Assembly: GCA_028288705.1 (NCBI GenBank)
Contig: JAQBNH010000007.1
Span: 620,001-684,000 of the forward strand
Direction of reading: 5' to 3'
DNA from: Ferruginibacter sp.
Lineage (GTDB): Bacteria > Bacteroidota > Bacteroidia > Chitinophagales > Chitinophagaceae
DNA: 64,000 nucleotides
Program-made: the position numbers and the translations under genes
Notes under the pieces: model-generated
Database searches by the model: none
The model's input: the letters and a program-made list of their open reading frames with translations, nothing else
Told to the model about the DNA's origin: nothing
Part shown: positions 4,256-47,895 of the stretch, piece after piece
How positions within the stretch are numbered: the stretch's first letter is position 1
Layout of the letters: every line of letters starts with the position of its first letter

Positions 4256-5412
4256 ATCGTATCTGATGGTGTATCCGCAACCGTGGTGACGACCATCTTT
4301 TTTTTGCGTAAGAAGGTCCTTTCCAGTTGCCGGTATAGTTTGGTTTTAGCGTCAGCTCTTGTATCGTCTCCCATTAACATGCCCCATGGCTTCATGTCTT
4401 CGATCCTGTCGAAGATGATTTTCAGGATAGCAATCGTTGGCAAAGCAAGGAAAATTCCCGGTAAGCCAATCAACGTTCCACCAACCACCACACCAACAAT
4501 CGTCACCAGCGCATTGATCTTTACTTTAGATCCTACAATCCTTGGCATCAGGAAATTTGCATCAATAAAATGGATGATCTCGAATCCAACAATGATCCAA
4601 ACGATATCACTTAACTGGGTTGAAGTTGTCAGCGTAACCAGGCAGGTAAAAACAATTCCTGTCAGGATGCCTACATAAGGTATGATGTTAAGGATGGCAG
4701 AAAATACCCCAAGGAAAATCGCGTATTTAACGCCAATGATCAACAGGATAAGGGAGTTGGCCATGGCTACGATCCACATTTCGGTGATCAGCCCCAGCAT
4801 ATATTTTTGTACAATACCTTTTGATTCCTGCAGCACCTCGATCACTTCGGGTTCGTGCGCCTGGTTGAAAACGGCTAATAAAAACCGTTTGATCATGTGA
4901 CGATAATGTAGAATCAGGAAGCTGTAAATGGCTATGATGATGATGTAAAAAATAATGGAAGTGATCGTAAAGAAGGTTTGGCCGAGCATTTCCGTACCGG
5001 AAGATTTCACATCTGCCGTAGCAGAGTCAATCATCACTTTTTGTTCCTTTGCACTAACATGAAACTTTTGCTGAATCCAGCTTTGGAGGGTAAGATAGTG
5101 ATCGTGCAGGTGCTCCTTGATAGAGGGAATATCTTTTAAAAAACTGGCGATCTGGTGCGATAAAAAATAGATGAGGCCGCCGATGACACTTAAGGCTAAA
5201 ATAACAGAAGCGAGGTTAGCACCGGACTTGGGGAACTTTAATTTATTCTCTAAAAAATTTGTGACAGGTAATAAGAGGATCGAAAGCAAAATGGAGAATG
5301 CCAGCGGAACGAACAAGCTGCTTGCATACGTGATGAACACGCAGAGCAAGAGGATCATTAATAGTTTAATCGTAAACTGGATATAAAAAGGCAGCAGCTT
5401 AAAGTTTATCAT
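4252..5412 (-). CDS. AI-2E family transporter (YdiK/PerM type)
   Basis: Multiple TM segments; ILNIIPYVGILTG and EIIHFIDANFLMPRIVGSKVKINALVTIVGVVVGGTLIGLPGIFLALP motifs. Confidence 0.9.
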   Translation of the reverse strand: MINFKLLPFYIQFTIKLLMILLLCVFITYASSLFVPLAFSILLSILLLPVTNFLENKLKFPKSGANLASVILALSVIGGLIYFLSHQIASFLKDIPSIKEHLHDHYLTLQSWIQQKFHVSAKEQKVMIDSATADVKSSGTEMLGQTFFTITSIIFYIIIIAIYSFLILHYRHMIKRFLLAVFNQAHEPEVIEVLQESKGIVQKYMLGLITEMWIVAMANSLILLIIGVKYAIFLGVFSAILNIIPYVGILTGIVFTCLVTLTTSTQLSDIVWIIVGFEIIHFIDANFLMPRIVGSKVKINALVTIVGVVVGGTLIGLPGIFLALPTIAILKIIFDRIEDMKPWGMLMGDDTRADAKTKLYRQLERTFLRKKKMVVTTVADTPSDTI

Positions 5413-47052: not shown

Positions 47053-47093
47053 AAAAAAACCGTTAACATATTGATCACCAATACATTAACGGT
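47053..47093 (-). terminator. Intrinsic terminator of the minus-strand tRNA-like RNA gene
   Basis: Minus strand: ACCGTTAA-tg-TATTG-gtgat-CAATA-tg-TTAACGGT hairpin followed by TTTTTTT. Confidence 0.85.
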
Positions 47094-47102
47094 CTATTTA
47101 AG

Positions 47103-47273
47103 CTGTAGGGGAAGGGCTCGAACCTCCACGAGGCAGTTAGCTGTAGTACAAAGTTCGGTGGTCGACCCCGGTCGGTTCACTATTGCTAATGAACCGGCTC
47201 TATGCTACGTTTGTCCTGTTATCCTCACCCCCGAGACAAGAGGGTATGTCTGCCAAAATTTCATCACCCCACA
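47103..47273 (-). ncRNA. Type-II tRNA-like RNA with an 89-nt insertion in the variable arm
   Basis: Acceptor TGTGGGG/CCCTACA (7 bp), G73; D arm ATG-AAATTTTGGCAGA-CAT; anticodon arm CCCTC-TTGTCTC-GGGGG; variable-arm stem TGAGG/CCTCG; T arm GGAGG-TTCGAGC-CCTTC; followed by terminator. Confidence 0.65.
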
Positions 47274-47305
47274 ATATTCAGCTGATCTGTACCAGCTTGA
47301 TAACA

Positions 47306-47313
47306 CAAAGATA
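47306..47313 (-). promoter_or_regulatory. Bacteroidota -7-type element (TATCTTTG) upstream of the tRNA-like RNA
   Basis: Minus strand TATCTTTG matches TAnnTTTG, ~33 nt before the tRNA-like 5' end; no clear -33. Confidence 0.45.
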
Positions 47314-47421
47314 CAGGGTTTGCACGTTTACTTAAAAATAATTCAACAAATATTTTGTAATTATAGAAATTATTCAAATATTTGCTGATAACATTGAAAC
47401 ATAACTAAAATTAGCTTCTCT

Positions 47422-47895
47422 ATGGCGGCAAAATTGAATCTTGACAAACTTGATCTGCAGATCATTCATGCAATGATGGAAAATGCGGAAATATCTTATG
47501 CAGAGTTAGGAAAAAAATTATTTGTCAGCGGGGGAACCATTCACGTGCGCATTAAAAAACTGCAGGAGTTTAATATCGTGAAAGGTACAAGGCTGAGCGT
47601 CGATCTCAAATTACTGGGTTATGATATTACCGCATTCGTGGGCATTTACCTGGAAAAAAGTTCTCTGTATGATGCAGTTGCTAAAGACCTGATGAAAATT
47701 CCCGAGATCATCCGCCTCAATTATATCACGGGTAATTACAGCATGTTTATCGAGATCGTTTGTAAAGATATCAGCCAGCTCCGGTATGTCTTGCATGATG
47801 AATTGCAAAAGATAAAAGGCATTGAACGCACCGAAACTTTCATTTCCCTCGAAGAAGGATTTATCCGGAACGTTCCGGTAGCGCCGGCTGAATAG
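47422..47895 (+). CDS. Lrp/AsnC family transcriptional regulator
   Basis: LDKLDLQIIHAMMENAEISYAELGKKLFVSGGTIHVRIKKLQEFNIVKGTRL. Confidence 0.92.
   Translation: MAAKLNLDKLDLQIIHAMMENAEISYAELGKKLFVSGGTIHVRIKKLQEFNIVKGTRLSVDLKLLGYDITAFVGIYLEKSSLYDAVAKDLMKIPEIIRLNYITGNYSMFIEIVCKDISQLRYVLHDELQKIKGIERTETFISLEEGFIRNVPVAPAE

Follow-up and report, generated by a model that had tools for sequence, protein, structure and literature searches.

The closest described counterpart of the system considered here is the tRNA-dependent synthesis of asparagine on tRNA-Asn by a non-discriminating AspRS and GatCAB, as in Deinococcus, Thermus and Bdellovibrio. The AspRSs of Bdellovibrio and Legionella charge tRNA-Asn, and some Bacteroidetes possess AsnRS, GlnRS and GatCAB with neither asparagine synthetase, for which synthesis on tRNA-Asn has been suggested (PMC4206432). 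Strong determinants of aspartate identity are G73, G34, U35, C36 and C38 (PMC9976931). G1-C72 is strictly conserved in bacterial tRNA-Asp and is reported to be crucial for identity, and amidation of Asp-tRNA-Asn is conferred by U1-A72 and prevented by G1-C72 and U20a (PMC9976931).

This study concerns an RNA gene in a window of 64,000 nucleotides from Ferruginibacter sp. (contig JAQBNH010000007.1, positions 620,001 to 684,000). The RNA appears to fit the gap left by the earlier survey of Bacteroidetes, as it looks chargeable by a discriminating AspRS and amidable by GatCAB and adjoins the gene of an AsnC-type regulator. It is likely, in our judgement, that the RNA encoded at the locus is a dedicated tRNA-like carrier on which asparagine is made, probably without a part in translation, and that it replaces AsnB/AsnA.

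Structure of the RNA gene

The gene lies on the minus strand at positions 47103-47273 (171 nt from acceptor position 1 to G73) and is a real tRNA-like RNA gene, far beyond chance. The cloverleaf that a preliminary description had drawn for 47273-47103 was borne out in its acceptor stem, G73, D, anticodon and T arms. The acceptor stem pairs TGTGGGG (47267-47273), which supplies U1 and G2, with CCCTACA (47104-47110), which supplies C71 and A72, and is followed by the discriminator G73 (47103). The D arm (47246-47264) has a 3-bp stem ATG/CAT and a tRNA-Leu-like loop, AAATTTTGGCAGA. The anticodon arm CCCTC-TTGTCTC-GGGGG (47228-47244) presents the Asp anticodon GUC at positions 34-36 (47235-47237), then a pyrimidine at 37 and C38, and the T arm is GGAGG-TTCGAGC-CCTTC (47111-47127). 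The promoter element and terminator described earlier are also present on the same strand, the former as a Bacteroidota-type -7 element, TATCTTTG (47306-47313), and the latter as a long intrinsic hairpin followed by T7 (47053-47094). The predicted full transcript has a folding z of -4.1. Base 74 is C in the inspected homologues and CCA is generally unencoded, as in most tRNAs of the window's genome.

Between the anticodon and T arms is an expanded variable arm of 97 nt (47130-47226), made up of a 4-bp stem, a 4-nt bulge on the 5' side, a 3-bp stem, an internal loop and an apical domain. The preliminary description had placed a 5-bp stem, TGAGG/CCTCG, around an 89-nt loop. Four of these pairs (GAGG/CCTC) are conserved and the fifth (T-G) is not kept, and the supposed loop proved to consist of the bulge, a covarying 3-bp stem, an internal loop RAYAAA/CUAA and a variable domain. 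The internal loop reads GACAAA (RAYAAA) on its 5' side (47210-47215) and CTAA on its 3' side (47137-47140). At the base of the apical domain (47143-47208) is a helix (GTAG.A / T.CTAC) that closes it and covaries within the genus. The hairpin with the stem CGGTTCA/TGAACCG (47173-47196), first proposed from the single sequence, is real, since the genus rewrites its sequence and largely keeps the pairing (88.7% of cells pair, with two-sided changes in 6/7 pairs). The apical domain also bears a motif, GGGTCGACCAC (47158-47168), conserved in the long forms of the RNA as GGGTYGACCAC; GACCAC was found in this context in 99/161 homologues. The motif is partly palindromic and is a possible protein or RNA contact site.

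Across 28 divergent homologues, 99.7% of the cells of the cloverleaf and second variable-arm stem pair, and two-sided changes were observed in 12/27 pairs, compared with 6.8 in shuffled alignments and 0-3 when slid. A further 102 homologues, in an alignment fitted to the model, gave 19/27 pairs with two-sided changes against 7.7 when shuffled. The acceptor, D, T and variable arms all have covariation behind them. Little can be learnt from the anticodon stem by itself, as it is nearly invariant. The 4-bp variable-arm stem, GAGG/CCTC in the window, is GGGG/CCCC, GAAG/CTTC, GGAG/CTCC or GTAG/CTAC elsewhere, and all three positions of the 3-bp stem covary (CAG/CTG, CGG/CCG, ACG/CGT, CAC/GTG). Every homologue has a standard T arm as its 3' arm, and total length ranges from 108 to 210 nt, the apical domain being strongly variable in size. 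Judged from these alignments, the 89-nt insert is an elaborate class-II variable arm and not an intron. The variable-loop intron offered earlier as an alternative was rejected on three grounds: covariation of the stems flanking the insert, conservation of RAYAAA/CUAA in the loop, and the lack of any intron-less form among ~190 homologues.

ARAGORN reported nothing in the window, and Rfam, searched at gathering thresholds and at E up to 10, gave only chance miRNA and viral matches below cut-off at the locus; the tRNA models (RF00005 / ARAGORN) do not recognise 47273-47103. A tmRNA was rejected, as neither RF00023 nor the ARAGORN tmRNA search matched the locus and the only tmRNA of the genome is at C3:29489-29860. 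The earlier characterisation as a discrete, non-decoding or specialised tRNA-like RNA distinct from tmRNA has therefore held up, given that the genome has its own tmRNA and tRNA-Asp and that Rfam and ARAGORN give no match. Checks for a lack of conservation, a lack of covariation and an Rfam match all failed to refute it. Literature searches of open-licence papers returned no description of a tRNA-like RNA in Bacteroidetes, and tRNA-like motifs go unmentioned in the main text of a 2010 list of 104 structured RNAs.

Conserved bases and tRNA identity

Base invariance was assessed in 62 homologues found without selecting by sequence pattern. U1-A72, G2-C71, U35, C36, C38 and G73 are present in 62/62 and G34 in 61/62, while pairs 4-69 and 5-68 of the acceptor stem are free to vary across the same set. 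By sequence, the RNA has a tRNA-Leu-like body, and the bases kept invariant amount to the aspartate identity set together with the GatCAB determinant U1-A72. Two features of tRNA-Asp, G1-C72 and purine 37, are absent: U1-A72 takes the place of the former throughout, and 61/62 homologues have a pyrimidine at 37. U33 is replaced in 6/62. A pyrimidine at 37 and a base other than U at 33 are abnormal in decoding tRNAs, so the RNA is probably non-decoding. The window genome's own tRNA-Asp has an ordinary loop (CTGTCAC) and G1-C72, and its tRNA-Asn also has U1-A72. Two details count against a carrier of aspartate and asparagine. The replacement of G1-C72 by U1-A72 may lower Asp charging, and the D loop has extra nucleotides near 20a/20b (A and G, not U20a), which may bear on recognition by GatCAB.

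The AspRS of the genome lacks the RDHGG of solved non-discriminating AspRSs and resembles the E. coli enzyme there, a weak indication from one specificity site. At this site the AspRSs of genomes with and without the RNA show no visible difference, which makes the RNA, and not a relaxed AspRS, the better candidate for enabling the route.

Occurrence and genomic context

Homologues were detected by BLAST in 60/100 related genomes. For wider searches a covariance model was built from 28 homologues, and only matches >90 bits were counted as the RNA family; several families of the same class contain such matches, as does f68, a family of another class. Matches of ~50 bits and 82-86 nt in the phylum-wide search are ordinary tRNA-Leu. 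The RNA spans Chitinophagales, Saprospiraceae, Cytophagales, f68 and phage contigs, and is often tandem, with up to 5 copies. Carriers include Chitinophaga, Ferruginibacter, Niabella, Segetibacter, Dyadobacter, Spirosoma, Emticicia, Runella, Cyclobacterium, Algoriphagus, Marivirga, Flammeovirga and Saprospiraceae. In Flammeovirga pacifica the RNA is repeated five times in tandem (L194:3688-4630, minus strand), in near-identical copies with a period of ~197 bp and one terminator after the last, so cleavage of the precursors probably resembles that of tRNA precursors. One second tandem copy (genome G015, L024:1725-1894) is pseudogene-like, with a decayed acceptor 5' strand (GTTTTGG vs CCCTACA).

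An exact-pattern scan of viral contigs yielded 25 contigs, each with a member of the RNA family (24 above 100 bits and one at 93 bits). Four of the phage contigs (L237, L253, L257 and L259) also bear ordinary tRNA genes, and the phage copies are flanked by PhoH-like, DNA polymerase and primase-helicase families, among others. An AsnC-type gene was not seen in the RNA-bearing viral contigs, and no DNA similar to the RNA was found in named phage records or PLSDB plasmids. Phage contigs also carry a second tRNA-Leu-bodied RNA of 119-162 nt, which starts with AGTCAGGTGGCGGAAT and ends with CCTGTCCTGACTA (L241:9980-10112, 4588-4706 and 4343-4504, minus strand; L257:3170-3298 and L259:5951-6099, plus strand); it has no recognisable normal anticodon arm and is not reported by ARAGORN.

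In the window, the RNA gene is divergent from a gene on the plus strand (47422-47895) for an AsnC-type Lrp/AsnC regulator of 157 aa. The best solved relative of this protein is E. coli AsnC (2cg4), and its nearest NCBIfam model is AsnC, with a score below the cut-off of that model; it is 90% identical to its counterpart in a Ferruginibacter MAG. In 43/48 of the first loci the gene of such a regulator starts ~150 bp upstream in the opposite orientation, at identities down to 51%, and one is also present at 73/106 further non-viral loci. None was found within 3 kb of the RNA in Cyclobacteriaceae and many Saprospiraceae loci. The other neighbours vary among loci, and no conserved aminoacyl-transferase neighbour was found among those examined. 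The promoter element is common among homologous loci (TAnnTTTG in 26/32 genus loci and 14/21 distant loci). Two AAATATTTG repeats lie between regulator and RNA (47347-47384), with CAAATATTTG at 47375-47384, and the intergenic regions of the genus are enriched in CAAATATTTG-type palindromes. These repeats are a candidate operator.

Co-occurrence with genes of asparagine synthesis

A sample of 65 genomes of the same class, 37 with the RNA and 28 without it, was surveyed, with GatCAB scored by GatB and AsnB called by the cut-off of the equivalog NF006949, because TIGR01536 matches paralogues in every genome and is uninformative. All 37 RNA-positive genomes have GatB, as does one of the 28 RNA-negative genomes (Fisher 2e-17, phylogeny-uncorrected). 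The lone RNA-negative genome with GatB (G139) is without GlnRS, which accounts for its GatCAB. The reverse was observed for AsnB, which exceeds the cut-off in none of the 37 genomes with the RNA and in 22 of the 28 without it (Fisher 3e-12, phylogeny-uncorrected), with the caveat that AsnB status is largely lineage-specific. A further RNA-negative genome (G151) scores 491 bits against the cut-off of 499. AsnA occurs in 3/37 RNA-positive and 4/28 RNA-negative genomes. As AsnRS is above cut-off in 65/65 genomes and GlnRS is present in 34/37 of those with the RNA, GatCAB has no other obvious use in most RNA-positive genomes.

The pattern recurs within family f23, where seven genomes have RNA and GatB without AsnB and three have AsnB with neither RNA nor GatB. 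In f68, which belongs to another class, the three RNA-positive genomes have GatB and lack AsnB. Within the genus, GatB was found in 45/47 RNA-positive and 4/13 RNA-negative genomes. Counted against the association are two genomes that carry the RNA and show no GatB (G044 and G053), four genus genomes with GatB and no BLAST-detectable RNA (G006, G017, G020 and G054) and four genomes outside the class with GatB and GlnRS and without the RNA (G129, G245, G281 and G402).

Two near-complete genomes of the same family as the window's (f1; G116 and G212) jointly lack the RNA, GatB, AsnB and AsnA and are predicted asparagine auxotrophs. Three clustered asparagine-synthase-like amidotransferase paralogues of 628-665 aa, below the AsnB equivalog cut-off, were observed in genome G000 (C11:122634-144630).

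Discussion

No function was proposed in the preliminary description, and it is the present analysis that adds the AspRS/GatCAB identity bases, the linkage to AsnC and the exclusion of AsnB. The gene family, its synteny and its co-occurrence with other genes were observed directly, and from them a chemistry of charging, amidation and release may be proposed. The RNA would be transcribed divergently from an asparagine-responsive regulator of AsnC type and probably controlled by it, and the transcript would be trimmed and given CCA as a tRNA is. AspRS would charge it with aspartate through the observed bases G34, U35, C36, C38, G73 and G2-C71. Amidation of the bound Asp to Asn by GatCAB is proposed because U1-A72 replaces the G1-C72 of tRNA-Asp. 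The odd anticodon loop and huge variable arm would keep the Asn-RNA off Asp codons, and Asn, freed by hydrolysis or transfer, would then feed AsnRS, so that the route would stand in for the missing AsnB/AsnA. Phage copies might, speculatively, boost asparagine supply in infection. It seems reasonably probable that this is a new class of RNA, a non-translating carrier combining a tRNA-Leu body with Asp and GatCAB identity, subject to AsnC feedback, that stands in for AsnB in a large part of Bacteroidota and has been taken up by phages.

The identity bases would be equally expected in a regulatory or sensing RNA, which would report on asparagine status through its charging state, with the AsnC-type regulator or GatCAB/AspRS as possible receivers, without bulk Asn being made. 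The AsnC linkage suits such a role, and the large conserved variable arm, with its internal loop and GGGTYGACCAC, looks like a binding site. Nothing in a pure sensor would require AsnB to be absent, yet the RNA is never found together with AsnB in the 37 RNA-positive genomes, which would otherwise be without an evident route to Asn unless AspRS charges tRNA-Asn; a sensor is therefore considered unlikely. Were AspRS to do so, ordinary tRNA-Asn could be the site of Asn synthesis by GatCAB and AspRS, as it is in Bdellovibrio, and the RNA would have an accessory part, for instance as a transamidosome scaffold or a chaperone. The co-occurrence with GatCAB, the U1-A72 of the genome's tRNA-Asn and the AspRSs already known from Bdellovibrio and Legionella accord with this. 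A scaffold does not need invariant Asp identity bases and U1-A72, however, and at one specificity site the AspRS here does not have the RDHGG of the solved non-discriminating enzymes, which leaves an accessory role improbable.

It is very improbable that the RNA takes part in decoding, as a tRNA with an unusual variable arm, inserting Asp (or another amino acid) at GAC/GAU and carried by phages for translation, even though it has the anticodon GUC and a full cloverleaf and its phage copies lie near tRNA genes. The bases at 37 and 33 speak against decoding, the genome has a normal tRNA-Asp, the GatB and AsnB patterns would be unexplained and, if amidated, Asn would enter at Asp codons. Non-decoding metabolic tRNAs exist in other bacteria, and these, along with the Asp identity bases, could be taken to suggest a carrier for another Asp- or Asn-tRNA-dependent reaction, such as cell-wall or peptide-tailing chemistry. 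Without a conserved aminoacyl-transferase neighbour among the loci examined, and with AsnB exclusion left unexplained, that reading has hardly any probability.

If the carrier role in asparagine biosynthesis is true, a widespread RNA overlooked by the annotation tools and the version of Rfam applied in this analysis is needed to make a proteinogenic amino acid, and a dedicated RNA is part of a basic metabolic pathway in many Bacteroidota and some of their phages. It would explain both the retention of GatCAB despite AsnRS and usually GlnRS, and asparagine synthesis without AsnB or a visibly relaxed AspRS. The rules of tRNA identity would have been recombined into a metabolic cofactor, and phages would bear an RNA-only metabolic gene.

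Among known systems, asparagine synthesis on tRNA-Asn shares with the proposed route the predicted Asp charging followed by GatCAB amidation, U1-A72 as amidation signal, and a setting in which AsnA/AsnB are missing from most genomes and AsnRS and usually GlnRS are present. The known route uses a decoding tRNA-Asn and a relaxed AspRS, whereas the predicted carrier here is a separate, probably non-decoding tRNA-like RNA with GUC, for which a discriminating AspRS could serve. A classical carrier would need GUU, and the RNA was not assigned to that route because this feature of tRNA-Asn fails.

With bacterial tRNA-Asp the RNA has in common G34, U35, C36, C38, G73 and G2-C71; it differs in U1-A72, in U/C37 (A37 in tRNA-Asp), in its tRNA-Leu-like D arm and in a variable arm of ~35-135 nt. 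The class-II tRNA-Leu resembles it in the type of D arm and D loop (ATG AAATTGGCAGA CAT) and the long variable arm, but has A73 in place of G73, and the RNA has an Asp anticodon and a far larger variable arm with a conserved internal loop; real tRNA-Leu scores ~50 bits with the covariance model, compared with ~90-139 bits for family members. Like tmRNA, the RNA combines tRNA-like ends with an inserted domain, although its insert is in the variable arm, the anticodon arm is kept and no conserved reading frame was seen. Mimicry of tRNA by a bacterial non-coding RNA is also known from the Y RNA YrlA, a candidate rejected here since the genome has no match to Ro60 (TROVE). The staphylococcal tRNA-Gly for peptidoglycan is a non-decoding metabolic tRNA, and such tRNAs are near-normal isoacceptors. 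As in these, a tRNA body would be diverted to metabolism; unlike them, the RNA forms a distinct family with a new domain.
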